Part shown: piece by piece, positions 1-16,214 of the stretch | Layout: every line of letters starts with the position of its first letter | Position numbering within the stretch: position 1 is the stretch's first letter | Source: an uncultured Clostridium sp. | GTDB taxonomy: Bacteria; Bacillota_A; Clostridia; Lachnospirales; Lachnospiraceae | Reading direction: 5' to 3' | DNA length: 16,214 nt | Assembly (NCBI GenBank): GCA_900556965.1 | Contig: USQV01000003.1 | Location: 1 to 16,214, forward strand | Made by a program: the position numbers and the translations under genes | Notes under the pieces: generated by a model | Told to the model about the DNA's origin: nothing | The model's database searches: none | Seen by the model: only the letters and a program-made list of their open reading frames with translations

Positions 1-2
1 AG

Positions 3-200: not shown

Positions 201-206
201 ACTTAT

Positions 207-677: not shown

Positions 678-758
678 CAGAAACAGAGGATTATATCAAG
701 AAAAAGAAACCGCAAATAATTCGGCCGCGAGGTCCGGGAGCGGTACCGGAGGTATGAG

Positions 759-2153: not shown

Positions 2154-2171
2154 CATAGCTTTGGCAGAAAA

Positions 2172-2183
2172 GAGGTCGACCTC
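2172..2183. repeat. 12-base perfect palindrome in the mgtE-ptsI gap
   Basis: GAGGTCGACCTC is a perfect palindrome lying 18 bases after the mgtE stop, within a 121-base GC-rich gap. It could be a protein-binding site or chance. There is no T run, so it is not a terminator. No promoter is apparent in the gap. Confidence 0.35.
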
Positions 2184-2274
2184 GCTGACCGGAATCACGC
2201 GCCAAGGCTTACGGACGTTCGGCTTGAAGGCCCGGAAGGGAACAAAAATCAGACATGGATCGGGGGATAGCAAG

Positions 2275-3912
2275 ATGCAGATATATCACGGAAAGAGCGT
2301 ATTTGGCGGGATCGCAGTCGGAAAAATACAGATATTTTCCAAGACCGAGCGCCGGATCCTAAAAACAGATGTTGCAGATACGAAAACAGAGTGTGAGCGG
2401 TTTGAGTGTGCAAGAAAAGAAGCGATCGCTCAGCTTTCTGTCTTATACGAGAGAGCCACGGAGAAGGTGGGCAAGGAGAATGCAGCTATTTTCTCCGCAC
2501 ATCAGATGATACTGGAAGACAAGGAGTATATCGATTCGGTCAACTATATCATCAATGCGGAAGGTGTCAATGCCGAATATGCTGTGCATGTGACAGCCGA
2601 CAATTATTCTGCGGTTTTTCTTGCGATCGACGATGATTACATGCGCCAGAGAGCAGCGGATATCCGAGATGTCTCAGAGCGTCTGACCTCTGTATTATCG
2701 GGAAATAAGACAGAATTATCGAGCTTTTCGGAGCCGGTGCTTATCTTTGCGGAGGATCTGGCACCCTCTGAGACGGTGCAGATGGACAAGGAGAAGATCC
2801 TTGCCTTTGTCACCGCCGGAGGTTCGGTCAATTCCCATACGGCGATTTTAGCCAGAACCATGGGTATCCCGGCCATTGTCGACGCGGGGATAGATCTGCG
2901 GGCAGATATGGACGGAAAAGAAGCGATTGTGGACGGCTATGATGGTACTGTTTATATTGAACCGGATGAGATGGTAAGGGCAGGACTTTTAAAACGCAAG
3001 GCTGAGGAGGAGAAAAAGAAGGCTCTCCTTCTGGAATTAAAGGGAAAAGAGGATGTGACGTTAGATGGACGGCATGTAAGCCTCTATGCGAATATCGGCA
3101 GCCTCGACGATCTGGATATGGTATTTGAAAATGATGCCGGCGGGATCGGATTATTCCGAAGTGAGTTCATCTATCTCAACAGCATGGATTATCCTGATGA
3201 GGAGGAACAGTTTAAGATTTACCGGTCTGTCGCAGAGGCAATGGAAGGAAAACGTGCTATAATCCGCACACTGGATATCGGAGCGGACAAACAGGCAGAT
3301 TATTTTCACATTCCCAAGGAGGAAAATCCGGCCCTCGGCTATCGTGCAATCCGGATCTGTCTGTCGCAGCCGGAGATATTTAAGACACAGCTAAGGGCGA
3401 TCCTGCGCGCCAGTGCATACGGAAATATTGCGGTCATGTATCCGATGATCACGTCAGTCTGGGAGGTTCGCAGGGTGAAGGAGATCATGGAGGAGGTAAA
3501 GGAGGAGCTGAGAGCGCAGAAGATTACTTTCGGCAATGTACCTCAGGGCATTATGATCGAAACCCCGGCGGCAGTCATGGTCAGTGACGCGCTTGCACGT
3601 GAAGTCGATTTCTTCAGTATCGGAACGAATGATCTGACACAGTATGCGTTGGCAGCAGACAGGCAGAACCAGAAGCTTGAGCTGTTTTACGACGCACACC
3701 ACCCGGCCGTTTTAAAGATGATCCGGATGACGGTGGAGAGCGCCCATGAGGCCAAAATCCCGGTGGGGATCTGCGGAGAGCTGGGAGCAGATACAACGCT
3801 TACCGAGACCTTTATAAGAATGGGAGTCGATGAGCTGTCGGTGTCTCCCGGCTGTGTGCTGCCTGTCCGTAAGGTATTAAGGGAAATAACGTATAAAGAG
3901 AACGACGTATAA
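2275..3912 (+). CDS. ptsI: Phosphoenolpyruvate-protein phosphotransferase (PTS enzyme I)
   Basis: A cytoplasmic enzyme that takes phosphate from PEP onto a histidine and passes it to HPr, the first step of sugar uptake by the PTS. The 545 residues fit the clostridial family size. The HPr-binding and swivelling N-terminal part holds the phospho-histidine H188 in GGSVNSHTAILAR. The PEP-binding barrel shows GIGLFRSEF, the conserved IETPAAV and FSIGTNDLTQY motifs, and the active-site cysteine C500 in GICGE. The ATG at 2275 was chosen because it follows GGGGG (2262-2266) at about eight bases and matches family N-termini (MQIYHGKSVF). The frame stays open 38 codons upstream to a TTG at 2161, but that segment is basic and unlike enzyme I. 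No ptsH is in the window. It probably shares the mgtE transcript. Confidence 0.93.
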   Translation: MQIYHGKSVFGGIAVGKIQIFSKTERRILKTDVADTKTECERFECARKEAIAQLSVLYERATEKVGKENAAIFSAHQMILEDKEYIDSVNYIINAEGVNAEYAVHVTADNYSAVFLAIDDDYMRQRAADIRDVSERLTSVLSGNKTELSSFSEPVLIFAEDLAPSETVQMDKEKILAFVTAGGSVNSHTAILARTMGIPAIVDAGIDLRADMDGKEAIVDGYDGTVYIEPDEMVRAGLLKRKAEEEKKKALLLELKGKEDVTLDGRHVSLYANIGSLDDLDMVFENDAGGIGLFRSEFIYLNSMDYPDEEEQFKIYRSVAEAMEGKRAIIRTLDIGADKQADYFHIPKEENPALGYRAIRICLSQPEIFKTQLRAILRASAYGNIAVMYPMITSVWEVRRVKEIMEEVKEELRAQKITFGNVPQGIMIETPAAVMVSDALAREVDFFSIGTNDLTQYALAADRQNQKLELFYDAHHPAVLKMIRMTVESAHEAKIPVGICGELGADTTLTETFIRMGVDELSVSPGCVLPVRKVLREITYKENDV

Positions 3913-3919
3913 AAAGAAC
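3889..3919 (+). repeat. Tandem 15-base near repeat at the ptsI stop
   Basis: ACGTATAAAGAGAAC (3889-3903) and ACGTATAAAAAGAAC (3905-3919) match at 14 of 15 bases with a 16-base period. The second copy is read in a shifted frame and supplies the TAA stop. This suggests a small duplication that reset the C-terminus of enzyme I. Confidence 0.6.
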
Positions 3920-3929
3920 AATGCATAAG

Positions 3930-4080
3930 TGGGCTGTCGGAAAAATTTATTATAAATCAACAAATTTACGATATCCGGGTGAAAAAGTTAGCTTTCCTGC
4001 CGATATGCCAAAAATTGAAGGTAAAAATCCATTCTCACGAAACAAATTTATGACTTAGTTTCATTCCAAGAAACTCCGGC
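3930..4080. other. Intergenic stretch resembling a dispersed repeat or element remnant
   Basis: AT-rich gap between ptsI and the next promoter. Read on the minus strand, one frame gives an uninterrupted segment of about 29 residues containing GISAGKLTFSPGYRKFVDL before two adjacent stops (about 3952-4044), with a stop upstream and no start or ribosome binding site. The plus-strand beginning GGGCTGTCGGAAAAA resembles an insertion-sequence end, and ACAAATTTA occurs twice. No transposase and no matching inverted end were found. Whether this is a repeat is inference; it may be plain intergenic DNA. Confidence 0.3.
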
Positions 4081-4084
4081 TTAT

Positions 4085-4114
4085 TTGACTTTAAAAGAAA
4101 AAGTCTGATAAAAT
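4085..4114 (+). promoter_or_regulatory. Sigma-A promoter for the C-S lyase gene
   Basis: TTGACT (4085-4090), an 18-base spacer and TAAAAT (4109-4114). The predicted start is near 4121, leaving a leader of under 40 bases before the ribosome binding site and ATG 4159. Confidence 0.7.
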
Positions 4115-4158
4115 TGGTGCATCAAACAACAAGGGTGAAGCCGGAAAGGAAATGAGAT

Positions 4159-5382
4159 ATGTATAATTTTGATGAGATCATTGACAGAAGACACACGAAT
4201 GCTTTGAATACGGATGGCTTCCGTGACTATATTTTCCACGCGGATGAAACGATGACATTTCCTTACAAGGATGAGGAATTTATCCGCATGTGGGTCGCCG
4301 ATATGGAATTTGCCACACCGGAGGTAGTAATTGACGGGATCCGTGAGAGACTCAATAAGAGGATCTTCGGCTATAGCAGAGTATTTGAAAAGAGCTATTA
4401 TGACGCATTTAACGGCTGGTGCATGAAAAAATATGGCTGGAGCTTTGACCGGAAAGAGCTGGTTATGTCAAATGGGATCATCCCCGCATTATTCGAGCTG
4501 GTCGAATATATCTGCAAGCCGGATGAGAAGGTACTGTTTTTAACACCGTCATACGCATATTTTAAATATGCAGCGGATTTCAGCAAGCGGGAATATGTAT
4601 GCTCCGATCTGATCAATGAAGATGGATACTATAAGATCGACTATGATGATCTTGAGAAAAAGGCGGCAGATGAGAAGACAACTTTATTGATCTTCTGCAA
4701 TCCGCATAACCCCAGCGGCCGTGTGTGGAAAGAGGAGGAGCTGGAAAAGGTTGCAAAGATCGTTGAGAAGCATCAGTTATGGGTGATCTCAGATGAGATC
4801 CACTGCGATCTTCTGAGACTGGGTCAGCATCATATACCCCTTGGAAAGGTAATGCCGGACTATAAAAGACTTATCACCTGCATGGCACCGAGCAAGACCT
4901 TTAATCTGGCCGGAATGATGATCTCCAATGTGATTATCCGTGATGAAGATATGAGAAAGATCTGGCTGGACCGCCATTATAACTTTGATAACCCGTTGAG
5001 TATTGCCGCAGCACAGGCTGCCTATGAAAAGGGAGATGAGTGGTTACAGGAGCTTAGAGCTTATCTGGACGGAAACTTTGAATTTACGGTAAACTACTTA
5101 AAAGAGCATCTCCCGAAGGCAAAATGCAGGATCTCCGAAGCAACCTATCTGGCGTGGGTAGATTTAAGCGCATATTTTGAACCGGATGAGCATCTTCCGC
5201 TGTTTTTCGCCTATAAGGCAGGCGTGCTTCTTGAGGGCGGAAATATGTTTGTGCAGAGCTCTGACGGATTTATCCGCCTGAATCTGGCTTGTCCGAGAGC
5301 AACCGTAGAGGAGGGACTGCGCAGGATCTGTGAGGCAGTAAACACAAAGCATACAGAAAAATATCTGGGAGAGCAAAATTAA
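4159..5382 (+). CDS. patB: PatB/MalY-type PLP-dependent C-S lyase (cystathionine beta-lyase)
   Basis: A fold-type I, pyridoxal-phosphate enzyme of the MalY/PatB group, which cleaves C-S bonds of cystathionine or cysteine conjugates to give pyruvate, ammonia and a thiol. The 407 residues are typical, if slightly long. The N-terminus FDEIIDRRHTN is the family hallmark. WVADMEF, the cofactor region CNPHNPSGR, SDEIHCDL and the PLP lysine K246 in APSKTFNLAG are all present. The ATG follows GGAAAGGA (4143-4150) by eight bases. It has its own promoter and ends inside a terminator, so it is probably monocistronic. An aminotransferase role cannot be excluded, because the two activities are hard to tell apart by sequence. 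No sulfur-metabolism neighbours are present. Confidence 0.85.
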   Translation: MYNFDEIIDRRHTNALNTDGFRDYIFHADETMTFPYKDEEFIRMWVADMEFATPEVVIDGIRERLNKRIFGYSRVFEKSYYDAFNGWCMKKYGWSFDRKELVMSNGIIPALFELVEYICKPDEKVLFLTPSYAYFKYAADFSKREYVCSDLINEDGYYKIDYDDLEKKAADEKTTLLIFCNPHNPSGRVWKEEELEKVAKIVEKHQLWVISDEIHCDLLRLGQHHIPLGKVMPDYKRLITCMAPSKTFNLAGMMISNVIIRDEDMRKIWLDRHYNFDNPLSIAAAQAAYEKGDEWLQELRAYLDGNFEFTVNYLKEHLPKAKCRISEATYLAWVDLSAYFEPDEHLPLFFAYKAGVLLEGGNMFVQSSDGFIRLNLACPRATVEEGLRRICEAVNTKHTEKYLGEQN

Positions 5383-5405
5383 TCGCCTCTCCCAGATAGA
5401 GTTTT
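5357..5405. terminator. Bidirectional terminator between convergent genes
   Basis: The arms TATCTGGGAGAG (5362-5373) and CTCTCCCAGATA (5387-5398) pair perfectly over 12 bases with a 13-base loop. Five A's at 5357-5361 give U's directly after the stem for the minus strand. TTTT at 5402-5405 serves the plus strand after a short gap. The left arm codes for the last residues of the lyase and its TAA sits in the loop. The T run overlaps the stop of the convergent kinase gene. Confidence 0.85.
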
Positions 5406-7227
5406 ATTCATTATTCCTTAATTCCCATGCAATGTGGGCGCTTTCTTCCAGTTCTTCCAGACTGTAGAAGGCGTCCATAATTGTTTTTCCGGGAACGATA
5501 GGGCCGTGATTTTTCAAGAGGAAGCCATCACTGTCCATGACTCTTTCGCGGAATGCAGAGAACAGGGCTTCTGAGCCCGGCTTCTCATAGGGGATCAAGC
5601 CGACAGAGCCCAGCCGCATTTTCAGGTAAGGGGTATGAGCCGGTATGCAGTCCTTTTCATCGGAGGCGGGAACAAAGCTCCATAAAACGGCATAGGTACT
5701 GTGTGTGTGGATCACGGCGCCGATGTCCGGATCCTTCTCAAAGAGTGCTGTATGGAGCGGCCATTCCTTGCTCGGCTTTTTACCGGAAATGACCGAGCCG
5801 TCCTTATCAATGCAGGAAAAATCTTCTTTTTTGAGTGTGCCGAAGCAGCTGCCGCTGGCAGTAACGTAAATGTGGCCGTTGTGGGCGAAGCTCATGTTGG
5901 CAGAGGAGCCGCTGGTCTTTCCACGTTCAAACAGGCTGTGGGCTGCCCAGACGGCGTCTTCAAGCTTTCTATCCAGCTCCGGATCAAAGCTACCGGTCAT
6001 AGACAGGGCACGGCCAAAGAAGTCCTGCTGGCCGAAGTTTCCGCTTTTTAAAATAAGACGTATATCAGGACGTTCAGCGGGAACCATGATCGGAACACCC
6101 GCGGCAACACTTTCTCCGATCCAGTAGGAGGAGAAGCCAAGTCCCTTTGTAACAGCACCGGAGGTCTCCCCGCCGGCGGTGATGATGCGGGTAAAGCCGG
6201 CTTTCACCGCCCGGGCTGCGAGGGCGGCTGTAGTGCCCTCCAGTATAGAAGCAACACGCTCGGCTCCCATTTTCTGAAATTCCCGGACTCTTTCCGGTGT
6301 GTCGGAGCTGTATACCAATACCGTCTTATTGGGAGCAGAATACTTCATAACAAATTCCCACGCATCCTCCAGCGTCTGCTTTCCATTTATCATAGCTTCC
6401 GGATCGAGCTTGTAGGTGGGCATCCCCTGACTCTGATACCATGCGATTTGCCCCAAAGTTGCCTTAGAACAGCTTCCGGCTAAGAGCAGTGCGTTTCCTG
6501 TTGTCGCACTTGGGGGGATAGTACCGGAGGAAGCAAGCTTTTTCGCCCAGATCTTTGCAAGGGGCTCCAAGATCCCGCTTCCGCCGGTAAGGAGGGGGAG
6601 TGAGCTGAAAACGCGAGCGATTCTTTCACCGTCCTCAGCAGTTCTATAATCAGGAATCAAGTAAATTGGCGTTGTTTTAAGGCTTTCCACAGAAAAGTGC
6701 TCCAGCTCATTCGAGGAGATATTCATACAGCGGAACTTGCTCTGAGGAGCCATCAGATGGTCGATCCTACAGTCCCACATCGGCGTAAGGGGATGATTTT
6801 TCATGTGGCTCTCGTGAAGCGGAACTCCGTTTACCATAAGCTTTCCGTCTTCCACGGTTCTTCCGTTTACCGGGAGTGCGGGGCAGAGAATGGAGCAGGG
6901 AGATTTCGTAAGCTCCATGAGAGCGTCAGCCACCGGCCCGATGTTTCCTTTTGGAGTAGAATCGAAGGTAGAGCAATATTTAAAATAAATCTGTTTCACA
7001 CCATGGTCTAAGAGGAAGCGGGCTGCCTGAAGGCTGTCTGCTACGGCAGAGCTTGTTTCCTGTGTACGCGATTTTAAAGCGATCACGATAGCCTGTGCAG
7101 AGCTGCAGGATTCGCTGTTCTGCGGGATCCCGTTGTAGAGCCTTACACTCATGCCTCCCTTTACGAGAAATGATGCGGCGTCACTGGCGCCTGTAAAATC
7201 ATCTGCAATACATCCTAATACAGCCAT
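5404..7227 (-). CDS. otnK-otnC: Fused acid-sugar kinase (OtnK type) and class II aldolase/decarboxylase (OtnC type)
   Basis: A 607-residue fusion of two enzymes that are normally separate. Residues 1 to about 405 are a four-carbon acid sugar kinase (DUF1537 family): ADDFTGASD (8-16) binds substrate, while GGETSGAV (from G352) and SGNFGQQDF belong to the nucleotide-binding half. Residues from about 412 on are a class II aldolase/adducin domain: ASGSCFG, a likely catalytic E488, zinc ligands H507 and H509 in HTHSTY, and H574 in KNHGP. The TPYLKMRLG and IPYEKPG motifs match OtnC rather than fuculose-phosphate aldolase. In known pathways OtnK phosphorylates 3-oxo-tetronate at C4 and OtnC decarboxylates it to dihydroxyacetone phosphate. 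The ATG follows AGGAGG at five bases. A sigma-54 promoter lies upstream and a terminator at the end. The exact substrate is inferred. Confidence 0.88.
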   Translation of the reverse strand: MAVLGCIADDFTGASDAASFLVKGGMSVRLYNGIPQNSESCSSAQAIVIALKSRTQETSSAVADSLQAARFLLDHGVKQIYFKYCSTFDSTPKGNIGPVADALMELTKSPCSILCPALPVNGRTVEDGKLMVNGVPLHESHMKNHPLTPMWDCRIDHLMAPQSKFRCMNISSNELEHFSVESLKTTPIYLIPDYRTAEDGERIARVFSSLPLLTGGSGILEPLAKIWAKKLASSGTIPPSATTGNALLLAGSCSKATLGQIAWYQSQGMPTYKLDPEAMINGKQTLEDAWEFVMKYSAPNKTVLVYSSDTPERVREFQKMGAERVASILEGTTAALAARAVKAGFTRIITAGGETSGAVTKGLGFSSYWIGESVAAGVPIMVPAERPDIRLILKSGNFGQQDFFGRALSMTGSFDPELDRKLEDAVWAAHSLFERGKTSGSSANMSFAHNGHIYVTASGSCFGTLKKEDFSCIDKDGSVISGKKPSKEWPLHTALFEKDPDIGAVIHTHSTYAVLWSFVPASDEKDCIPAHTPYLKMRLGSVGLIPYEKPGSEALFSAFRERVMDSDGFLLKNHGPIVPGKTIMDAFYSLEELEESAHIAWELRNNE

Positions 7228-7241
7228 GTTATCCTCCTCAT

Positions 7242-7261
7242 ATCATCTAATGTTAAATGAT
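7242..7261. repeat. Interrupted inverted repeat in the kinase-fusion leader
   Basis: ATCAT-C-TAA-TG-TTA-A-ATGAT pairs 8 of 9 positions. It lies between the predicted sigma-54 start (about 7278) and the ribosome binding site. It could be an operator or a weak hairpin near the ribosome binding site. Confidence 0.35.
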
Positions 7262-7288
7262 GTAAATACATATTCACCATTAAAATAT

Positions 7289-7304
7289 AGCAAAAAACAT
7301 GCCA
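7289..7304 (-). promoter_or_regulatory. Sigma-54 (-24/-12) promoter for the kinase-decarboxylase fusion
   Basis: On the minus strand TGGCA (7304-7300), six bases, then TTGCT (7293-7289) matches the invariant TGGCA-N6-TTGCW spacing exactly. Transcription would start near 7278, about 50 bases before the start codon. A sigma-54 activator gene lies directly upstream. Confidence 0.85.
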
Positions 7305-7445
7305 ACTTGACAGCTTTTTTGCACAGGCGGGATAGGGCAGGGAGCAGGCAGCATAAAAATGAAAAATCTCCCGGCAAAGAAGGAAATTGAGCAAAAAAAT
7401 GTGTATAAATGTGCAGATCCGCTGCTCCAAGCAGGCGTTGATGCG

Positions 7446-7475
7446 TTGACGAGAAGTGTTGCACTGTTGTATAAT
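7446..7475 (+). promoter_or_regulatory. Sigma-A promoter for the PrpR-type activator
   Basis: TTGACG (7446-7451), an 18-base spacer and a perfect TATAAT (7470-7475) point at the activator gene. The predicted start is near 7482. The half-site TGTTGCA (7457-7463) sits inside the spacer, so binding there should block RNA polymerase, which suggests autorepression. Confidence 0.7.
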
Positions 7476-7508
7476 CAAACAAAATTCAACACCAGATGCA
7501 ACATGATG
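7457..7508. promoter_or_regulatory. Candidate activator binding sites (UAS) of the divergent region
   Basis: TGTTGCA (7457-7463) and TGCAACA (7497-7503) form an inverted pair with 33 bases between them. The second extends to ATGCAACATGATG (7496-7508), which recurs with one change at 9501-9513. The sites lie about 180 and 220 bases upstream of the predicted start of the kinase fusion, a usual distance for sigma-54 activators. That the PrpR-type protein binds them is inferred from their recurrence at both target promoters. Confidence 0.6.
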
Positions 7509-7572
7509 GCCCATACCGAATAAAAGTGTCTGCAGCATTGCGGCAGCAGTATAACAGAATGGAGGCAGCTTT

Positions 7573-9474
7573 ATGATCCGTCTTTTATTTATTGTCCCTT
7601 ACCCGGAGCTGAGAAGCAAGGTGGAATATGTTCTTTCGCATCATAAGGACGCCAAAAGAGTGAACGCGGATATATGCACTATGACGGTGGAGGATACACC
7701 GGATGTCCAGACCGGGGAATACGATGCGATCATCGCGAGAGGATATACGGCAAGAAAGACTACCTCCATGTATCATCAGATTCCCACGATCAACCTCTCG
7801 ATATCCGGATACGATATTATCCGTGCGATCCATGAGTGTGGGGAACGTTTTCATTCAAAGAAAATTGCGATCTGCGGCTTCGGGAGTCAGCTATTTGAGG
7901 CAGAGACCGCAGGAAAGATCATGAATATTGATGTTCGTGCATACGCTCCGGTAGAGCATGATGAGATATCCGATACCATGCAGAAGGTGCTGGAGGCCGG
8001 GTGTGATGCCGTTATTGGCGGTTATTCGGTAAATATGCTGGCCAGACAGATGGGAATAAATTCTGTCGTGATACGGACAGGTGAAGATACGATCCTTAGG
8101 GCCCTTGATGAAGCGATCCGAACGGTCGACCAGATCCGGCAGGAGAGGATCGTTTCCCAGATGTATAAGACGATCATTTATGCATCAAAGGATGGGATCC
8201 TTTATGTGGACAACCGGGGTGTGATATTAGTCAGGAATCGGGTCGTCCGTCAGATGCATGGAAATATCAGCCTGAAGGATCGAAGCTTAGAGGATACGCT
8301 GCCTTATCTTTCCAAAGTGTATCGTACAGTTATGGAAACAGAAAAAGAGATATCCGGTCAGATTCTGACCATTCCCGGTACAAAGACAAAAATTTCCGTG
8401 AGCGGAACTCCGGTGATCGCGAACAGAGAAATTTCCGGTGTGGTATTGGATCTGACGGATATAACGCTTATTCAGGATCTGGAGGGTCAGATCCGAAGAA
8501 AGTTAAATGAGCGTGGGTTAAAGGCCAGATATACGTTTGAGGATATCATCCATAAGAGCGAGCGGATGGATCGGACGATAGCCGTGGCAAAGAAATATGC
8601 GGCATCGGATTCTAACATAATTATTGTTGGAGAGACCGGAACAGGAAAAGAGCTGTTTGCCCAGAGTGTCCATAATGCCAGCAAACGGAAAAACGGGCCT
8701 TTTGTGGCGATCAACTGTGCGGCATTGGCAGAAAATCTTCTGGAAAGTGAGCTGTTTGGCTATGTAGAGGGCGCCTTTACCGGTACCAGCAAGGGAGGAA
8801 AGATGGGGCTGTTTGAGCAGGCCCACGGAGGCACCCTCTTTCTGGATGAGGTTGCAGAAATATCTCTGGCGACTCAGAGTAAGCTTTTAAGGGTCATTCA
8901 GGAGAAGCAGGTCAGAAGGATCGGAGATAATAAGGTCATCGATGTGGATGTCCGTATCCTTGCTGCGACCAATAAGAGCATCTCTCAATTGGCGGCACAG
9001 GGAAAATTCAGAAAGGATCTGATGTATCGGCTGGATGTTTTGCGCCTGTTCATCCCGCCCCTTAGAGAGCGTGGGAATGATGTAGAGCTCATGTTTCTTC
9101 ATTTTGTAAAAATGCTGTGTACTGAGGCCGGAATGCAGGTGCCGTTTATAGCCCCGGATGCGATCCCGCTCCTATACAATTATCCATTTACGGGTAATAT
9201 AAGAGAGCTTAGGAACATCGTGGAGCGGGTCTGCGTACAAAAGGACGGAGAGTGGATCACAGCCCAAAATATGAGAGAAGCTCTTTATCCGGATGATCTG
9301 GAGGAGGCGCGGCATACTCCGGAAATCAAAAAGAAAGAGGCAGAGATTGAAACGGAGGAGGAGAGGATCCGGAAGGTGCTGAACCGATGCGGAGGAAATA
9401 AGTCGAAGGCAGCCGCCCTTCTTGGGATAAACCGTTCCACCCTCTGGAGAAAAATGCAGAAATATCAAATATAG
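7573..9474 (+). CDS. PrpR-type sigma-54-dependent transcriptional activator
   Basis: A 633-residue enhancer-binding protein. The N-terminal third (about 1-180) has the PrpR_N sensor fold, seen in propionate and related small-acid regulators; it presumably binds the inducing metabolite. A PAS-like region follows (about 200-305). The AAA+ domain shows Walker A GETGTGKE (353-360), the sigma-54-contacting loop GAFTG (400-404) and Walker B GGTLFLDE (419-426). A Fis-type helix-turn-helix ends the protein (NKSKAAALLGINRSTLWRKM). The ATG follows GGAGG (7561-7565) by seven bases. It has its own sigma-A promoter. The two neighbouring transcription units carry sigma-54 promoters and shared upstream half-sites, so it most likely controls the acid-sugar genes on both sides. 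The inducer is unknown. Confidence 0.93.
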   Translation: MIRLLFIVPYPELRSKVEYVLSHHKDAKRVNADICTMTVEDTPDVQTGEYDAIIARGYTARKTTSMYHQIPTINLSISGYDIIRAIHECGERFHSKKIAICGFGSQLFEAETAGKIMNIDVRAYAPVEHDEISDTMQKVLEAGCDAVIGGYSVNMLARQMGINSVVIRTGEDTILRALDEAIRTVDQIRQERIVSQMYKTIIYASKDGILYVDNRGVILVRNRVVRQMHGNISLKDRSLEDTLPYLSKVYRTVMETEKEISGQILTIPGTKTKISVSGTPVIANREISGVVLDLTDITLIQDLEGQIRRKLNERGLKARYTFEDIIHKSERMDRTIAVAKKYAASDSNIIIVGETGTGKELFAQSVHNASKRKNGPFVAINCAALAENLLESELFGYVEGAFTGTSKGGKMGLFEQAHGGTLFLDEVAEISLATQSKLLRVIQEKQVRRIGDNKVIDVDVRILAATNKSISQLAAQGKFRKDLMYRLDVLRLFIPPLRERGNDVELMFLHFVKMLCTEAGMQVPFIAPDAIPLLYNYPFTGNIRELRNIVERVCVQKDGEWITAQNMREALYPDDLEEARHTPEIKKKEAEIETEEERIRKVLNRCGGNKSKAAALLGINRSTLWRKMQKYQI

Positions 9475-9500
9475 GATCGAGTGATCAAGGATAAAAGATG

Positions 9501-9564
9501 ATGCAGCATGATGCGGATGTTTCAAATTCTGTTCATGTGTTGCATCATCTTTTTCAATGCAACA
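9501..9564. promoter_or_regulatory. Candidate activator binding sites (UAS) upstream of the permease operon
   Basis: TGTTGCAT (9538-9545) and ATGCAACA (9557-9564) are a perfect 8-base inverted repeat with an 11-base spacer. It is centred about 140 bases before the predicted sigma-54 start. A further site, ATGCAGCATGATG (9501-9513), closely matches ATGCAACATGATG at 7496-7508. The repeat of the motif at both sigma-54 promoters makes it the best candidate for the activator's operator. Confidence 0.7.
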
Positions 9565-9664
9565 TCGTCATGAGAAATTTGCACAAGACAAAGCGGAAAG
9601 TACAGATGCTAATTATATAAGGTAAACAAAGGAAAATTAATTTTTTTTCAAGGAAAAAAATATC

Positions 9665-9680
9665 TGGCATAAATATTGCT
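9665..9680 (+). promoter_or_regulatory. Sigma-54 (-24/-12) promoter for the permease-dehydrogenase operon
   Basis: TGGCA (9665-9669), six bases, then TTGCT (9676-9680) is an exact fit to the sigma-54 spacing. Transcription would start near 9691, about 58 bases before the permease start. Confidence 0.85.
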
Positions 9681-9748
9681 GATTTATGAGAGTAACATTA
9701 ATGTGCTGCAAGCTGCAGCCGCAAATCTAAGAAGGGGGTAATTTTTAC

Positions 9749-11074
9749 ATGTCAACATCTTATGTACTAATTGTTTTTGCCGTTGTTATTGCGTTGATGA
9801 TCATCCTGATCTCAAAATGTAAGGTAAACGCAGCAATGGGAATTCTGGTTTCCGCTCTGATCCTTTCTGTAGCGCTCAAAACTCCGTGGGAGAAGATCGA
9901 GAGTACCATCAACAGCGGATTTTCCGGAACCATCAAAAGTGTAGCTATCGTTATTGTTCTCGGATGTACCATGGGTACGGTTCTTGAAAAAACAGGTGCG
10001 GCGATCAAGATCACCAAATGGGCGATCGGCCTTGTAGGCGAAAAAAATATGATCTGGGCGATCGCACTGAGCTCCGCGATCCTTGGTATTCCGATCTTTG
10101 CAGATACAGTCGTAATTCTCCTGATCCCGATCGTATCTCTTTTAGCAGTCAAGACAAATAAGTCTATGATGAGCTATGGTACTGCTCTTTATCTTGGCGC
10201 CCTTGTTACCGCTTCTTTAGTACCGCCGACACCGGGCCCGGTATCCGCGGCAGCTCTTTTGAACGTTCCTCTCGGACAGGCGATCCTCTGGGGCGCTATT
10301 GTAGCCGTTCCGAGTGTAATTGCAGCTACATTATACTGTATGACCTTAAAAACACCGGTTGCTCCGAAGGAGGAATTCCTGAAGTCAGCAGCGGAGAGTG
10401 AAAACATGGAGCTTCCGTCTCTGTTTAAATCTCTGCTCCCGATCCTGTTCCCGCTGTTTTTAATCCTTCTTAATACCGTTGCTTCTATCCTTGTTCCGGA
10501 AACGCCGATCGCAAACTTCCTTGCCTTCATCGGAAGCCCGTTAGCAGCTCTGTTCACCGGATGTATCCTTTCTTTACCGTTAACAGGAAAGAAATGGAGA
10601 AGCAAGGAAGTCTTAAACGACTGGGTAAACGAAGGTATTGTAGCTTCTGCAATCCCGATCGTTGTTACCGGTATGGGCGGCGCCCTCGCTACCTTTGTTA
10701 AAAATGCAGGCGTAGCAGAAAAGATCGCAGACATCATCGTACAGTCTCCGTTCCCGGCGATCCTGATCCCGATCATTATTGCAGCGATCATCCATGTAGT
10801 GACCGGATCAAATGCTCTTGGCGTAATGACAGCAGCCGCTTTAGTTGAGCCGATGTTAGCAACACTCGGTATCTCTCCGGTAGCAGCATTCTTAGCCTGC
10901 GGTACAGGCGCTTTGATGTTTAAGCATGCCAACTCCTCCGGATTCTGGGTAACCGTTTCCATGTCCAACATGAATGTGAACCAGGGTATCCGCGGCGTAG
11001 GCGGCGCTTCTACCGTAGCCGGATTTACCGGGGCTGTAGTTACCTGCATCCTTGTGTTCCTTCACATTATTTAA
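9749..11074 (+). CDS. GntP-family acid-sugar permease
   Basis: A 441-residue integral membrane protein of the gluconate:H+ symporter (GntP) family, which imports sugar acids by proton symport. It is hydrophobic throughout, with about a dozen membrane segments. Family landmarks include GIPIFADTVVILLIPIV, LVPPTPGPVSAAALL and, near the C-terminus, FKHANSSGFWV. Length is typical. The ATG follows a GGGGG ribosome binding site (9734-9738) by about ten bases. It is the first gene of a sigma-54-driven operon with the two dehydrogenases, so its substrate is probably the acid sugar consumed by the kinase-decarboxylase. The exact sugar cannot be read from sequence. By eye it uses isoleucine ATC and proline CCG very consistently, which fits high expression when induced. 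Confidence 0.9.
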   Translation: MSTSYVLIVFAVVIALMIILISKCKVNAAMGILVSALILSVALKTPWEKIESTINSGFSGTIKSVAIVIVLGCTMGTVLEKTGAAIKITKWAIGLVGEKNMIWAIALSSAILGIPIFADTVVILLIPIVSLLAVKTNKSMMSYGTALYLGALVTASLVPPTPGPVSAAALLNVPLGQAILWGAIVAVPSVIAATLYCMTLKTPVAPKEEFLKSAAESENMELPSLFKSLLPILFPLFLILLNTVASILVPETPIANFLAFIGSPLAALFTGCILSLPLTGKKWRSKEVLNDWVNEGIVASAIPIVVTGMGGALATFVKNAGVAEKIADIIVQSPFPAILIPIIIAAIIHVVTGSNALGVMTAAALVEPMLATLGISPVAAFLACGTGALMFKHANSSGFWVTVSMSNMNVNQGIRGVGGASTVAGFTGAVVTCILVFLHII

Positions 11075-11098
11075 GCAGTACCGGAAAGAAGTATCAAA

Positions 11099-11150
11099 AA
11101 TAATATTGGAAAATAGGATTTCAAATAATATCAGAAAATAATATCGGAAA
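11099..11150 (+). repeat. Three direct repeats leading into the dehydrogenase ribosome binding site
   Basis: AATAATATTGGAAA (11099-11112), AATAATATCAGAAA (11124-11137) and AATAATATCGGAAA (11137-11150) are three near-identical 14-base copies. The last one supplies the GGAAAGGA ribosome binding site. They fill the gap between the permease and dehydrogenase genes and probably arose by local duplication. Confidence 0.6.
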
Positions 11151-11165
11151 GGAATGGTATTGACC

Positions 11166-12155
11166 ATGGAAAAATTTGTTACCAGAGCAGCACGTTTAAA
11201 TAAGGCATACGATATCGAGCTGATCGAGCGTGAATTAGAGTGCGGAGAGGATGATATCATTGTTAAGAACCACATGATGGGTATCTGCGGCTCTGACAAG
11301 AGTTTCTATCGTGGCTTCATGCCGCCGCAGACGGCAGAGTTCCGCCAGCCGCCGGAATTTCCATTCCTTCTCGGACATGAGAGCGGCGGTACGGTCGTTG
11401 CAGTAGGAAACCGTGTCAGTGATTACAAGGTTGGCGATAAGGTTATCGCTTTCGGATGGAATAATAACTTTGCCGACTACTTCAAGGCGAAAAACTTCCA
11501 GCTTCAGCCGGTTCCGGAAGGTCTTGATATGGATATAGCAGCTCTTGGTGAGCCGACGGCATGTGCGATGTATTCCGGACTTCATACAGGCGTACAGCTT
11601 GGTGATACCGTTGTTATCATGGGAGCCGGATATGCAGGCCAGATCATTGCCCAGTGCTCTAAATTAAAGGGGGCATATCAGGTTATTGTTGTTGATGTTC
11701 TTGAGGGAAAATTAAATCTGGCAAAATCTCTCGGAGCGGATATTGTCATCAACTCAAAGGAGGAGGATCCGGTGGCAAAGGTCAAGGCCCTGACCGGAGG
11801 ACGCGGCGCCGATGTTGTTGTTGAGGCAGCGGGTTCAGCCGAATCCTTTAATGCGGCAAGCGCCATGATCCGCCACAACGGTAAATTTGTATTTTACAGC
11901 TGGGTGACCACCCCGATCACGTTAAACATCAGCCGCTGGCATGATGACGGACTGGAGTTCGTAAATACGTGTCTTGTTCATCATACATGGCAGGAACGCT
12001 TCGTGTGGGTACCGGATACACTTCGCCCGGTCATTCAGGGTTCTGTTAAGATCAAACCGCTGATCACAAATGAATTTAAGCTTGCAGACATCAAGGCGGG
12101 CTTTGATCTTGCAGATAAGGACGATGCGGCAATTAAGATCGTATTCCGTCCATAA
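11166..12155 (+). CDS. Zinc-dependent medium-chain alcohol dehydrogenase
   Basis: A 329-residue NAD(P)-dependent dehydrogenase of the MDR superfamily. Catalytic zinc ligands are visible as C41 (GICGSD), H71-E72 (LGHE) and E129 (GEPTAC). The nucleotide-binding Rossmann motif is GAGYAG (153-158). The four-cysteine loop that holds the structural zinc in many family members is missing: the region around 95-110 reads AFGWNNNFADYF. An ATG at 11154 would be read in the same frame, but GGAAAGGA abuts it, so ATG 11166 (MEKFVTRAAR) is preferred at a 12-base spacing. It is the second gene of the permease operon. It probably oxidises the imported acid sugar or an intermediate; the substrate is not determined. 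Confidence 0.85.
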   Translation: MEKFVTRAARLNKAYDIELIERELECGEDDIIVKNHMMGICGSDKSFYRGFMPPQTAEFRQPPEFPFLLGHESGGTVVAVGNRVSDYKVGDKVIAFGWNNNFADYFKAKNFQLQPVPEGLDMDIAALGEPTACAMYSGLHTGVQLGDTVVIMGAGYAGQIIAQCSKLKGAYQVIVVDVLEGKLNLAKSLGADIVINSKEEDPVAKVKALTGGRGADVVVEAAGSAESFNAASAMIRHNGKFVFYSWVTTPITLNISRWHDDGLEFVNTCLVHHTWQERFVWVPDTLRPVIQGSVKIKPLITNEFKLADIKAGFDLADKDDAAIKIVFRP

Positions 12156-12201
12156 AATATTCATCAACAATAATCAGCTTTAGAGGAGATTAATAAAAAT
12201 T

Positions 12202-13572
12202 ATGGATTATACAAACCTGATCAATGACAAATCCGGAAAGGTATCAAAAGTCGGCATCATCGGTGCGACACGCGGATATGGTTACACCTTATTAGCTCAG
12301 ATCCCCCATGTAAAACACATGGAGCTGCGTGTCATCTGCTCCAGACATACAGATGAATGCAGGGACGTATTAAAGGAGATCGGATATGATGAGAATAAGA
12401 TTGTTGTCTGTGACGACAAAAAAGCGATCGATGCAGCCCCGGAGGATGCAATTCTCATTGTCGGCGATTACCGTCTTGTCGCAGAATGTGGGATCACCGC
12501 TCTTGTTGAGTGTACCGGAAATACTGCTGTAAGCTCGGATGCCGCTCTGATCGCACTGAAAAAGGGCACTAACGTTTACATGGTATCTAAGGAGACAGAC
12601 AGTGTATGCGGCCCGCTTTTAAATCAGGTCGCTGCTGAGAATAATGCAGTGTATGCACTGGTAAACGGCGATCAGCCGAGAAATCTGATCGATCTTTATA
12701 CATGGGCACAGCTTCTTGGACTTGAGGTCGTTGCAGCGGGAAAATCCAGCGAATATGATTTCGTGTGGGATCGGGAAAGCGGCGATTTCCAGTATCTGGA
12801 CGGAAATTGCAAGGCAGAGAAGCTGCCTGAGATGATGGACAGCTGGTATTATAAGGGAACGGAAACACTGGAGGAAAGAAAAAGGCTTCTGGAGAAATAT
12901 CTGGATGTCATTCCGGCTGATCTCTGCGAGATGAATCTTGTTTCCAATGTGACCGGACTCGTTCCGACCTCCCCGTTCTTAAGCTACCCCATCGCAAAGA
13001 TCAGTGAGCTTGCCAATATCTTCATTCCGAAGGAGGATGGGGGCATTCTTGATAAGACAGGTGTTGTAGATGTATTCTATAACCTGAGAGGAAAAGATGA
13101 AGCCAGCTTCTGCGGCGGCGAATTTATTATCGTAAAATGCGAGAATGAGAAGATGTGGGATATCTTAAAGGGAAAAGGGCATGTAATGAGCAAAAATGAC
13201 AAGTATTGCTGCATTTATTACCCATACCACTATATGGGAATGGAAACTCCGGCCTCCATCATTCTCGGTGACTTCCTTGGAGTCGGAACGCATACGGAGT
13301 GCCGACAGGTATCTGTTCTTGCCGGTGTTGCCGACACAGATCTTAAGAAGGGAACAGTCTTTACGGTTCACGGTCATCACCATGAGATCGATGGATTGAC
13401 ACCGGAGCTTCTTGAAAGAAAAGCAGTCGGAAATGCAGCTCCCTTCTATCTGTTAAATGGTTCCGTCCTTTTAAATGATGTGAAGAAGGGAGATCCGGTC
13501 ACTATGGATGACGTAGATCTGTCCGGACTTGAAGCCTATCAGTTATATAAAAAAGGACTCGAGCTGAAGTAA
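12202..13572 (+). CDS. SAF-domain NAD(P)-dependent oxidoreductase (homoserine dehydrogenase-like, COG4091 type)
   Basis: A 456-residue protein. The N-terminal Rossmann fold carries GIIGATRGYG (18-27), and CTGN and SKETDSV match the homoserine-dehydrogenase-like group. A middle catalytic region follows, and the C-terminus ends in a SAF domain (about 385-456; KKGTVFTV and KKGDPVTMDD). Such proteins are often misannotated as flagellar FlgA or homoserine dehydrogenase. Several occur in polyol and sugar-acid gene clusters, but the reaction here is not known. The ATG follows AGGAG (12184-12188) at 13 bases, a rather long spacing with no better start. It is the third gene of the permease operon, 46 bases after the alcohol dehydrogenase. 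It may oxidise or isomerise the acid sugar before phosphorylation. Confidence 0.8.
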   Translation: MDYTNLINDKSGKVSKVGIIGATRGYGYTLLAQIPHVKHMELRVICSRHTDECRDVLKEIGYDENKIVVCDDKKAIDAAPEDAILIVGDYRLVAECGITALVECTGNTAVSSDAALIALKKGTNVYMVSKETDSVCGPLLNQVAAENNAVYALVNGDQPRNLIDLYTWAQLLGLEVVAAGKSSEYDFVWDRESGDFQYLDGNCKAEKLPEMMDSWYYKGTETLEERKRLLEKYLDVIPADLCEMNLVSNVTGLVPTSPFLSYPIAKISELANIFIPKEDGGILDKTGVVDVFYNLRGKDEASFCGGEFIIVKCENEKMWDILKGKGHVMSKNDKYCCIYYPYHYMGMETPASIILGDFLGVGTHTECRQVSVLAGVADTDLKKGTVFTVHGHHHEIDGLTPELLERKAVGNAAPFYLLNGSVLLNDVKKGDPVTMDDVDLSGLEAYQLYKKGLELK

Positions 13573-13587
13573 GGCAAAAAAGAAGCT

Positions 13588-14037
13588 TTATTTCCTCAGG
13601 AGAGTTTCCCGAAGGGAAACAAGCTTGTCTGCAATGCAGACGATCCAGGCCTCCCTTGAAGCGGGAACTCTCCGGGGGTTTAACGGCCACATGTGGCAGT
13701 AGATCACATCTGCGGTTTTCTTATCGATGTTTATGTATTTTCTTGCGTTTCTGCACGCTCTTTCCGCATGGGTGAAGCCGTGCAGGCGGTGCCTTCCGCC
13801 ATCCCTTTTATGCCAGTCATACAGGTAGAAGTCGTGGAGCATGGCGCCGACCAGCAGCACCTTTAGATCGGCATTAAGCGAAAATCTCTTATTGATATAA
13901 TAGCTTAAGCTTGCTACATTTCTGCAATGATCGAATGTGGAAACATGTCCGTGCTGAACATATTTTTTCATTTTCTGAACATGGGTATCTGACTGTATTT
14001 CATGCAGGAGTTTACCCGTTTTTTTATGGGATCTCAT
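13588..14037 (-). CDS. HD-domain metal-dependent phosphohydrolase
   Basis: A small 149-residue protein with the HD superfamily signature: H37 (TFDHC), H68-D69 (LHDFYLYDW) and D137 (CIADK), plus H86, H90 and H115, which may be further metal ligands. HD proteins hydrolyse phosphate esters of nucleotides or related compounds; the substrate here cannot be deduced. The ATG at 14037 follows a GGGG-containing ribosome binding site by about eight bases. It is the second gene of a minus-strand pair, 16 bases behind the VOC gene. Its stop lies only 15 bases from the convergent SAF gene, and no clear terminator separates them. The palindrome GTTTCCC/GGGAAAC (13604-13620) lies in its 3' end. Confidence 0.82.
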   Translation of the reverse strand: MRSHKKTGKLLHEIQSDTHVQKMKKYVQHGHVSTFDHCRNVASLSYYINKRFSLNADLKVLLVGAMLHDFYLYDWHKRDGGRHRLHGFTHAERACRNARKYINIDKKTADVIYCHMWPLNPRRVPASREAWIVCIADKLVSLRETLLRK

Positions 14038-14053
14038 CGGTAGCCCCTGCCCT

Positions 14054-14452
14054 TTACAGCTTCTGAAGGAGCTCTAACAGCTCTCCGTCCGGGCCAAAGA
14101 AGAAAATGTTCCGGATCCCGCCGAAGATAGGAAGTGTCATGGGAGCTTCGCTTCTAAAGTTTGTAATACCGGCCTCTTTAAGTTCAGCTACGGCAGCGTC
14201 GATATCATCGACCTCGATCGCAATGTGGGGGAACAGTCCGCCCTCAGAAGTGACAGCGCTTCCGTCATGGGGTTCAATGATCTCAAGGACAAATCCGGGA
14301 AGTGCGACCAGAGTGATGTGGTTGGTTCCGGCGGGTTTTTCAACATCGGCATGTCCGCAGACGGAGCCGCCCAGCTTTTCATAAAATTTTACAGAGGCAT
14401 TCAGATCTTTCGTAAACAGTGCGATATGTGCAAGTGCGGTAATATGTTTCAT
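14054..14452 (-). CDS. VOC-family (glyoxalase-like) protein
   Basis: A 132-residue protein with two beta-alpha-beta-beta-beta modules, typical of glyoxalase I and related metal enzymes of the vicinal oxygen chelate superfamily. Likely metal ligands are H9 (LAHIALFT), E57 (VLEIIE), H76 (FPHIAIEV) and E127 (GELLELLQ), the same arrangement as glyoxalase I. It may detoxify methylglyoxal or act on another small substrate; the superfamily is too broad to decide. The ATG follows AAGGAGAG by seven bases. A promoter (14489-14517) lies about 35 bases upstream, facing away from the exonuclease gene. It is the first gene of a pair with the HD hydrolase. Confidence 0.85.
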   Translation of the reverse strand: MKHITALAHIALFTKDLNASVKFYEKLGGSVCGHADVEKPAGTNHITLVALPGFVLEIIEPHDGSAVTSEGGLFPHIAIEVDDIDAAVAELKEAGITNFRSEAPMTLPIFGGIRNIFFFGPDGELLELLQKL

Positions 14453-14488
14453 GGAAATACTCTCCTTATATATTTTTTTATATCACTT

Positions 14489-14517
14489 AGTATAATATTG
14501 ATGGAACGGAAACTCAA
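14489..14517 (-). promoter_or_regulatory. Sigma-A promoter for the VOC-HD operon
   Basis: On the minus strand TTGAGT (14517-14512), a 17-base spacer and TATACT (14494-14489). The predicted start is near 14482, about 30 bases before the start codon. Its -35 end lies only six bases from the divergent promoter's -35. Confidence 0.65.
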
Positions 14518-14523
14518 CTGAAA

Positions 14524-14552
14524 TTTACAAGCAGGGAAAACTGTGCTATACT
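14524..14552 (+). promoter_or_regulatory. Sigma-A promoter giving a leaderless exonuclease mRNA
   Basis: TTTACA (14524-14529), a 17-base spacer and TATACT (14547-14552). Transcription should begin near A14559, only about three bases before the ATG at 14562, so the mRNA has practically no 5' leader. Confidence 0.7.
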
Positions 14553-14561
14553 TGTTTCACT

Positions 14562-15545
14562 ATGAAAAGTTATATTGTTTTTGATCTGGAATGGAATCAG
14601 AGCTCCGCGGGGAAAGAAGCGTCCCTTGACCATCTTCCATTCGAGATATTTGAGATCGGAGCCGTAAAATTAAATGAAAATATGGAAAAGCTGTCGGAAT
14701 TTCACCGTCTGATCCGTCCCTGCGTATACCGCCAGATGCATTTTGCGATCTCTGAGGTAACGCATGTAACGATGGATGAGCTTATCCACCGGGGAGAGCC
14801 GTTTAAACAGGTTATGGAGAGCTTTCTTGAATGGTGCGGCGACGACTATATTTTTTGCACATGGGGCAGTATGGATCTGACAGAGCTGCAGAGAAATATG
14901 ATATATCACGGAATGGAGATCCCGTTTGCGAGTCCGCTCCTGTTTTATGATGTGCAGAAATTATACAGCCGCCTTTATTCTGATGGAAAAACAAGGGAAT
15001 CCTTAGATGTGGCAGTGAATTTTTTCGGTCTTGAAGCCAATGTCCCGTTCCATCGGGCGCTGGAGGATGCCGAGTATACAGGAGGGGTCTTGCAGAGGCT
15101 TGATATGGATCAGGTCGGGGAATACGTTTCCGTGGATTATTACCGGATCCCACAGTGCAGGGAAGAAGAATTTACTCTTGTATTTCCGGATTATTCCAAG
15201 TTTGTTTCCAGAGGCTTTGCAACAAAAGAGGACGCAATGAGTGACAAACAGGTCACGGATATGGTTTGTTATAAATGTCGGAGAATGCTGAGAAAGAAGA
15301 TCCGCTGGTTTTCGTATGGGCAGCGGTTTTATCTTTGCCTTGCAGCCTGTCCGGAGCATGGACCGGTGAAGGGAAAGATCAGGATGAAGCGCTCCGAGGA
15401 CGGCTCTGTCTTCGCAATCAAGACACAAAAGATCGTGAACAGCGAAGGAGCGGAGCTGATCGCCAGAAAGAAGGAGGATACAAAGCTCCGCCGTGCGGAG
15501 CGGGAAAAAGCGAAGAAAAGAGTAAGACAGAATACAGAAGCGTAG
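14562..15545 (+). CDS. DEDDh-type 3'-5' exonuclease with C-terminal cysteine cluster
   Basis: A 327-residue protein. Residues 1 to about 190 are a DnaQ-like 3'-5' exonuclease with all five active-site residues: D8 and E10 (FDLEWN), D105 (WGSMDL), H164 and D169 (HRALEDAEYT). It is near the KapD/ERI-1 type of exonuclease; the substrate (RNA or DNA) is not clear. The C-terminal third has a CX2C (C236, C239) and a CX3C (C259, C263), which could bind zinc, then a strongly basic tail that would favour nucleic acid binding. The start is fixed because the catalytic FDLEWN begins at residue 7, and no start codon lies in frame just upstream. No ribosome binding site precedes the ATG, consistent with leaderless translation. 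A terminator follows. Confidence 0.87.
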   Translation: MKSYIVFDLEWNQSSAGKEASLDHLPFEIFEIGAVKLNENMEKLSEFHRLIRPCVYRQMHFAISEVTHVTMDELIHRGEPFKQVMESFLEWCGDDYIFCTWGSMDLTELQRNMIYHGMEIPFASPLLFYDVQKLYSRLYSDGKTRESLDVAVNFFGLEANVPFHRALEDAEYTGGVLQRLDMDQVGEYVSVDYYRIPQCREEEFTLVFPDYSKFVSRGFATKEDAMSDKQVTDMVCYKCRRMLRKKIRWFSYGQRFYLCLAACPEHGPVKGKIRMKRSEDGSVFAIKTQKIVNSEGAELIARKKEDTKLRRAEREKAKKRVRQNTEA

Positions 15546-15570
15546 AACTTCGCTTCATCGGATATAAGAA

Positions 15571-15618
15571 TGAGGGCATCGCAGATCATCAGCCTTTGCG
15601 GTGTCCTCACTGTTTTTT
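15571..15618 (+). terminator. Intrinsic terminator after the exonuclease gene
   Basis: The arms 15571-15584 and 15596-15609 pair over 14 positions, three of them G-U wobbles, with an 11-base loop. Three bases later come six T's (15613-15618). In the minus direction the wobbles become A-C mismatches, so it works only on the plus strand. Confidence 0.8.
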
Positions 15619-15626
15619 CATCGAAA

Positions 15627-16214
15627 CTATTTTCGTCGGAAGCGATCCCGGAAGCCGGGCTTTTTATAAGTCGACCGGGAGCGGATATGATCTTCCATTA
15701 TCTTGTCAAATTCTGTGGTAGAATAGCCCCATCTCTTTAAGCGGTTTTCACGGCGCTGCTGGCGCAGGATCCGCTCATTTCGTTCTCTGTGTTCCCGAAA
15801 AGCAAGGATCCCGAAGATAAGGGCGGCAACTGCACCCAGTCCGGCGGCTGCGATCAGTACCTTCTTTAAAATGGGAGGAAGCTTTGGTTTTACGGTGTTG
15901 TCAGAGCTTTTTTTGATTTCGGCTTCCTCTGTCTGGAGGGGGGCATCTGTTTCTGCCGCAGAGGTCTCCTTGGTAAAGGCAGAGGTCTCCTCGGTAGAGG
16001 CAGACGGATCATCAGGCAGAGTGTAGCCGGGCTCCCTTATGGCCTCCAAATAGGCTTGTCCGATCTTTTTATCCCCATACATGTATTCAATACAGGCGAT
16101 CGCAGAATCGGGGGCAGTACCGGTCAGCTCGTAGTCCAGAGTGGAGGTCACATCGGAAAAATCTCCCTCGGCGGGGAGTGTGACGACACTGTTTTTGTTG
16201 ACGGAGAGCCGGAG
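15627..16214 (-). CDS. C-terminal part of a membrane-anchored protein, probably a D-Ala-D-Ala carboxypeptidase (5' end outside the window)
   Basis: The frame is open to the right edge, so this is the last 195 residues of a longer protein. A GTG at 16151 is not a convincing start, because coding-like sequence continues upstream (VTLPAEGDFSDV). The first 70 or so visible residues (TLPAEGDF, IEYMYGDKKIGQAYL) resemble the all-beta C-terminal domain of DacA/DacF-type penicillin-binding proteins, which trim cell-wall peptides. A Ser/Thr/Glu-rich linker follows. Then comes one hydrophobic membrane helix (about VLIAAAGLGAVAALIFGILAF) and a strongly basic cytoplasmic tail. The catalytic domain is not in view, so the name is an inference from the tail. 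It converges on the exonuclease gene. Confidence 0.6.
   Translation of the reverse strand, partial: LRLSVNKNSVVTLPAEGDFSDVTSTLDYELTGTAPDSAIACIEYMYGDKKIGQAYLEAIREPGYTLPDDPSASTEETSAFTKETSAAETDAPLQTEEAEIKKSSDNTVKPKLPPILKKVLIAAAGLGAVAALIFGILAFREHRERNERILRQQRRENRLKRWGYSTTEFDKIMEDHIRSRSTYKKPGFRDRFRRK

Follow-up and report, generated by a model that had tools for sequence, protein, structure and literature searches.

A sigma-54-associated OtnK-OtnC gene cluster with a DRL-like oxidoreductase as its proposed entry dehydrogenase in an uncultured Clostridium sp.

The window analysed here is a 16,214-nucleotide stretch of DNA from an uncultured Clostridium sp. of the Lachnospiraceae (GCA_900556965.1, contig USQV01000003.1, positions 1 to 16,214), in which a fused otnK-otnC gene, a GntP-family permease gene (gntP) and genes for two unrelated dehydrogenases (adh and drl) are arranged around the gene of a PrpR-type activator. 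The original prediction had placed these five genes in a sigma-54-controlled acid-sugar pathway using OtnK and OtnC without the classical enzymes LtnD and OtnI. Comparison with relatives, in which drl and otnK are conserved neighbours and neither LtnD nor OtnI reaches its cut-off in related Bacillota genomes, suggests that the locus encodes a genuine and conserved tetronate pathway variant, in which a so far uncharacterised clade of DRL proteins probably plays a new part. All five open reading frames (ORFs) were intact and lay where they had been reported, with gaps of 79 bases between gntP and adh and 46 bases between adh and drl in the plus-strand run:

5404-7227, minus strand: otnK-otnC fusion; kinase half above its curated cut-off, decarboxylase half below
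7289-7304, minus strand (read 7304-7289): promoter-like -24/-12 (sigma-54) site preceding the fusion gene, one mismatch
7495-7503, plus strand: the word GATGCAACA, candidate activator half-site; a related word is enriched in relatives
7573-9474, plus strand: PrpR-type sigma-54-dependent activator (domain and family models)
9493-9553: imperfect inverted repeat with 16-nt arms and 29-nt spacing, candidate upstream activator site of gntP
9665-9680, plus strand: promoter-like -24/-12 (sigma-54) site preceding the gntP-adh-drl run, one mismatch
9749-11074, plus strand: gntP, GntP-family acid permease (domain and family models)
11154-12155, plus strand: adh, MDR (zinc-type) dehydrogenase, accessory and tied to GntP, weakly like IolM and L-threonine 3-dehydrogenase
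12202-13572, plus strand: drl, DRL-like oxidoreductase and proposed entry dehydrogenase, signature GK[SA]SEYDFVW

Protein families at the locus

Pfam and NCBIfam models together classed four of the five proteins as proposed (the fusion, the PrpR-type activator, the GntP permease and the zinc alcohol dehydrogenase, ADH), whilst the drl product was placed by Pfam alone, with no NCBIfam match. The looser label of SAF-domain oxidoreductase for this last protein was dropped, as the Pfam SAF model did not match it at E 0.001. The fusion carries SBD_N, NBD_C and Aldolase_II domains, and its kinase half passes the NCBIfam model of 3-oxo-tetronate kinase (OtnK, NF043035; 426.4 vs a cut-off of 350 bits) while failing those of D-threonate kinase and OiaK (the latter 92.8 vs 700). 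OtnK and OtnC form a single ORF in the window and in loci L001, L003, L015 and L016, are separate in most other compared loci and lie on opposite flanks of the cluster in L034 and L035; genome G1111 may hold another fusion (a 638-aa open frame).

PrpR_N, Sigma54_activat and HTH_8 domains identify the activator as a PrpR-type sigma-54 activator, which falls below the cut-off of the propionate PrpR equivalog (377.2 vs 499.2). ADH carries ADH_N and ADH_zinc_N domains; its best NCBIfam matches, IolM and L-threonine 3-dehydrogenase, are both far under cut-off, as is the IdnD model (92.7 vs 469). With C45, GHE (74-76), a GEP motif and five cysteines only, it presumably retains the catalytic zinc ligands and lacks the structural zinc lobe. 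Elsewhere in the window, the ORF of PTS enzyme I (2161-3912) opens at a TTG some 37 residues ahead of the first internal methionine, and the true start is probably the ATG of that methionine.

Linkage, missing enzymes and promoter-like sites in relatives

Fifty loci were gathered by DRL similarity alone (38 from Bacillota and 12 from Pseudomonadota), and the window was added to give 39 Bacillota loci. Counted by tblastn at a 40% identity threshold, by which the OtnK of L036 (36%) was missed, these 39 loci contained OtnK in 27, OtnC in 27, PrpR in 30, GntP in 19 and ADH in 18; where full flanks were available, OtnK was found in 19/23 Bacillota loci, or 20/23 when the distant L036 OtnK is counted. 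At the level of genomes, OtnK scored over cut-off in 28 of the 38 DRL-fetched Bacillota genomes and in 3 of 393 genomes of the class, one of which (G007) also has the window-type DRL. A draw of 200 genomes from one family, which includes its centre G007 as a known DRL genome, held window-type DRL in four and OtnK over cut-off in eight. OtnK was present in 4/4 DRL genomes, on the same contig, against 4/196 others (Fisher p 1.1e-6), and in 3/3 against 4/196 once the centre was removed (p 2.7e-5); kinship among genomes inflates these statistics, gene orders nonetheless varying between loci. The predicted linkage was therefore borne out by the neighbourhoods of homologues. Among close loci, ADH is more conserved (93-96% identity) than DRL (77-89%) or OtnK (67-74%).

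The two dehydrogenases proved to be unequal partners, both being present as predicted. ADH occurs in 18/19 loci with GntP and 0/20 without, some of these on short contigs, and in full-flank loci the division is complete (11/11 with GntP, 0/12 without); OtnK is present in 11 of the 20 loci that have no GntP. This confinement of ADH to GntP loci defines a core of DRL, OtnK, OtnC and PrpR with an exchangeable permease and partner enzyme: ADH is an accessory tied to GntP, whereas DRL is a core member. An amidohydrolase, found in 9/39 loci and never alongside ADH, usually accompanies a KdgT permease or TctABC-type genes. It stands in place of the GntP-ADH pair with KdgT in L004, L017, L018, L024, L027, L028 and L036 and with TctA in L020 and L022, and it may act on the acid in lactone, ester or amide form. 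In most Halomonadaceae loci DRL is accompanied by TctABC and a GntR of the FCD type, PrpR not being detected.

We also examined six OtnK loci that do not contain the window-type DRL (L144, L178, L187, L188, L189 and L190). Five have another dehydrogenase in the cluster, the sixth (L189) being a 4.6-kb contig without one: an isopropylmalate/tartrate-type enzyme (Iso_dh) in L187, a 2-hydroxyacid dehydrogenase accompanied by a TIM-barrel protein in L188, an LtnD-like enzyme under cut-off (224.6 vs 350) in L190, and, in both L144 and L178, a TDH-like ADH together with a TRAP transporter. This variety implies that an entry dehydrogenase usually occupies the place of DRL, and suggests that OtnK-OtnC is an end module able to take several unrelated entry dehydrogenases.

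Neither LtnD nor OtnI was found by Pfam among the ten window proteins scanned, nor was the classical combination of LtnD or DenD plus OtnI seen there. Across 38 related Bacillota genomes with window-type DRL, many of them metagenome-assembled genomes (MAGs) and the window species' own genome not among them, LtnD was over cut-off in 0/38 and OtnI in 0/38, whilst 12/12 and 11/12 proteobacterial genomes, respectively, were positive. A DenD search of 23 genomes gave 0/20 over cut-off in Bacillota and 3/3 in Halomonadaceae, with 0/14 in control genomes. The predicted lack of LtnD and OtnI was thus upheld in these relatives, and with the conserved linkage it agrees with the variant OtnK/OtnC route that had been proposed.

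Within the window alone, the sigma-54 sites and the activator word had to be rejected as a signal: three -24/-12 sites were found against 3.54 expected (at most two mismatches), and the frequency of GATGCAACA was not above chance either. A signal came only from comparison across relatives, the window included, in which sites with at most one mismatch were sought within 250 bp upstream of genes. Such sites preceded GntP in 14/20 cases, OtnK in 14/28, KdgT in 4/6 and DRL in 12/34 against a background of 4/238, and were absent in these loci upstream of PrpR (0/31), ADH (0/15), OtnC (0/18) and the amidohydrolase (0/9), counts resting on ORF calls that missed the DRL of L015, L016 and L018 and the OtnK of L050. 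The word ATGTTGCA, selected post hoc once the counts were known, occurred in 27/62 stretches upstream of full matches to a slightly relaxed sigma-54 pattern and in 12/310 random stretches from the same loci. A sigma-54 factor gene (rpoN) lies near the cluster in L012, L013, L014, L019 and L191, checked by Pfam in L013 and by BLAST in the others.

A separate clade of DRL-like oxidoreductases

The drl product matches Pfam DRL_cat at 88.4 bits (cut-off 27), which is weak beside the approximately 117-228 bits of most full-length DRLs in Clostridia and Alphaproteobacteria. Its sole sequence matches in the PDB are Brucella abortus DRL/DXR-II (3upy and 3upl), and its AlphaFold model (pLDDT 85.7) has 3upl as best structural match (E 1e-31, TM 0.74); domain and predicted fold together place it in the DRL superfamily. 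According to the 2013 family survey, which left DLO1 and DLO2 uncharacterised, DXR-II anchors phosphate, or the phosphonate inhibitor, through Lys191, Lys193 and Thr229; in place of this threonine, DLO1 proteins have Leu/Ile/Val and DLO2 proteins Pro/Ser/Ala (PMC3847144).

In our alignment, K191, D167, E141 and E232 were retained in 52/52 window-group proteins, K191 in all three groups compared (window, DXR-II-type and DLO-type). The window group has Asp at position 229 in 52/52, where the comparison groups have Thr (32/32 DXR-II-type) or Ser/Ala (33/33 DLO-type), and it has lost K193, partly by definition since the group was picked by its motif. Set beside Brucella DXR-II and DLO1/DLO2 (PMC3847144), the window DRL has the fold, DRL_cat, K191, D167 and E232 in common, but it lacks the K193 and T229 anchors, is linked to OtnK and OtnC and forms its own clade, which fits neither DLO1 nor DLO2 by position 229. 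The alignment omits L145-L149 (duplicates), L032, L038, L130, L015, L016, L018 and 16 more DRL-like loci whose ORF was unpicked or too short.

A tree of 82 proteins, made by a quick method with long inner branches flagged, separated the window, DXR-II-type and DLO-type groups by one branch each (SH-aLRT 99 each). With the motif columns and column 229 excluded, the tree is independent of how the window group was defined, as is the T229-to-D change. Its sample was thinned of 16 locus ids as close relatives and of three rows classed as other, and used 22/32 DXR-II and 22/33 DLO rows; the DLO comparison is DLO2-like, a group set apart from the window group, no DLO1 sequence having been identified. 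Given the lost anchor residues and the separate clade, we rejected a DXR-II function for the drl product. Retention of the redox core with loss of the phosphate pocket suggests instead that its substrate is probably unphosphorylated.

Higher-scoring DRLs are common in Clostridia, where DRL_cat matches 41/393 genomes, two of them with the window type. Clostridia DRL loci L081-L110 carry the DXR-II-type GKGKNN motif in 29/30 cases and CKGKNN in one, and G192 and G261, which have OtnK and no window-type DRL, each carry one higher-scoring DRL away from OtnK.

Proposed route and competing explanations

From gene content, conserved linkage, shared promoter-like sites, the absence of LtnD and OtnI over cut-off in related Bacillota and the distinct DRL clade without phosphate anchors, all seen by sequence comparison, we infer the transport substrate, the reactions of DRL and ADH and the end product. 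An aldonic acid, a tetronate being the likeliest candidate, would enter through GntP, and DRL would oxidise it to 3-oxo-tetronate without need of OtnI, either by direct oxidation at C3 or by oxidation coupled to isomerisation. OtnK would then phosphorylate C4 of 3-oxo-tetronate and OtnC would decarboxylate the product, probably to dihydroxyacetone phosphate (DHAP). If oxidation takes place directly at C3, OtnI would be superfluous and no new chemistry would be needed. ADH may oxidise another isomer to the same 3-oxo-tetronate: L-threonate and D-erythronate are alike at C2 and differ at C3, so that a pair of dehydrogenases with opposite preferences at C3 could yield a common product. In the halomonad locus L044, the neighbours of DRL pass both cut-offs (OtnK 613.9 vs 350, OtnC 350 vs 250 bits), which favours 3-oxo-tetronate as the four-carbon intermediate and DHAP as the end. 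We hold this sigma-54/PrpR-controlled regulon, with DRL feeding OtnK and OtnC, to be the reading best placed to account for the locus, and are moderately confident in it.

Several observations weigh against it. The decarboxylase half of the fusion has OtnC as its best family and yet stays under cut-off (184.3 vs 250 bits), as do the OtnC homologues of L024 and L036 (179.8 and 141 bits). Three of the 23 full-flank Bacillota loci (L021, L022 and L029) have no OtnK nearby and none over cut-off in the genome. In Pseudomonadota, the 12 loci and six further ones have OtnK and OtnC nearby in only 7/18 subfamily loci; L143 and L177 have PdxA and no OtnK, and neither OtnK, OtnC, TctA nor PdxA is present at L040, L141, L142 or the short L043. 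PdxA without OtnK also lies near a window-clade DRL in L022. Finally, all 11 Halomonadaceae genomes with window-type DRL (11/11) also carry LtnD and OtnI. In five of the genomes compared (G044, G045, G046, G048 and G050) a second OtnK lies away from the DRL-linked one, next to LtnD, OtnI and DenD in G045 and G048, LtnD and OtnI in G046 and G050, and OtnI in G044. With classical enzymes in the same genome, DRL need not use the same acids, which suggests that in Halomonadaceae it serves an acid they leave unused, or another isomer.

That co-occurrence would also suit a different substrate altogether. DRL may be a new oxidoisomerase that takes the branched four-carbon acid 2-(hydroxymethyl)glycerate to an aldehyde and, by a carbon-group shift resembling the chemistry with which DXR-II serves isoprenoid synthesis, but reversed, oxidative and put to catabolic use, to 3-oxo-tetronate. 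Its closest solved structure and fold are those of DXR-II, a skeletal-rearrangement enzyme; the residues common to the three groups are kept while the phosphate anchors are lost; and no isomerase would be required. The D-apionate route, in which the oxidoisomerase ApnO precedes OiaK, would be a parallel, having one oxidising and isomerising enzyme before a DUF1537 kinase, but the window kinase scores as OtnK and not as OiaK. We know of no abundant source of 2-(hydroxymethyl)glycerate, and none of the residues that we examined distinguishes a rearrangement from simple dehydrogenation. According to PMC3847144, a DXR mutant was not complemented by four DLO representatives, none of them known to belong to the window clade. 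We therefore consider this explanation improbable.

The proposal that DRL is the entry enzyme also faces one in which ADH is the tetronate 3-dehydrogenase and DRL does other work, such as epimerising or detoxifying. A TDH-like ADH does occur in the OtnK/OtnC loci L144 and L178, which lack the window-type DRL, and L-threonine 3-dehydrogenase and IolM are the nearest, if distant, NCBIfam families of the window ADH. However, the L144 and L178 enzymes share only 29-30% identity with the window ADH, and every non-GntP locus has DRL and no ADH (20/20; 12/12 with full flanks), 11 of these 20 with OtnK. An entry role for ADH in place of DRL thus appears unlikely. The L-idonate operon, with IdnT and IdnD, likewise pairs a GntP-family permease with an MDR dehydrogenase, but the window ADH is far under the IdnD cut-off.

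We likewise see little likelihood that the substrate is a five-carbon or other 3-oxo acid handled by OtnK and OtnC of relaxed specificity. The low-scoring OtnC half would fit, as would the varied permeases (GntP, KdgT, TctABC) and the amidohydrolase of relatives; the kinase, however, passes the 3-oxo-tetronate cut-off and fails those of D-threonate kinase and OiaK, and the L044 partners exceed both cut-offs. Lastly, an ordinary pathway with LtnD and OtnI, or unrelated stand-ins, elsewhere in the genome is very improbable given 0/38 for each enzyme in related Bacillota, many of them MAGs, even if the search covered relatives rather than the window species itself and many relatives hold sub-cut-off LtnD-like and TIM-barrel proteins.

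The proposed DRL-OtnK-OtnC route differs from two known tetronate pathways. With the four-step pathway for L-threonate and D-erythronate (LtnD/DenD, OtnI, OtnK, OtnC) it has OtnK, OtnC and the probable DHAP end in common; it lacks LtnD and OtnI (and DenD where tested), having a DRL-like enzyme and ADH instead, is under putative sigma-54/PrpR control, and has OtnK and OtnC fused. The three-step L-threonate bypass of LtnD, 2-OtnK and 2-OtnC, as described in PMC12540250, also omits OtnI, but it needs LtnD, which was not found here, and its OtnC is of the F_bP_aldolase type where that of the window is of the Aldolase_II type. Among the literature matches listed, subscription papers being outside the scope, none connects OtnK with a DRL-like enzyme in its title or displayed abstract.

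Taken together, this analysis gives a concrete proposal of function for a clade of DXR-II-like oxidoreductases that position 229 places outside DLO1 and DLO2. As the OtnK-OtnC end appears to accept several entry dehydrogenases, annotation rules that require LtnD and OtnI would overlook routes of this kind. Judged by record titles, many of the related genomes are from gut samples, and in the gut L-threonate derived from plant ascorbate may be available. In the window species, which is related to gut Lachnospiraceae, this conserved gene set probably serves to degrade a four-carbon sugar acid, with an uncharacterised relative of an isoprenoid-pathway enzyme as entry enzyme in place of the two that usually act first.

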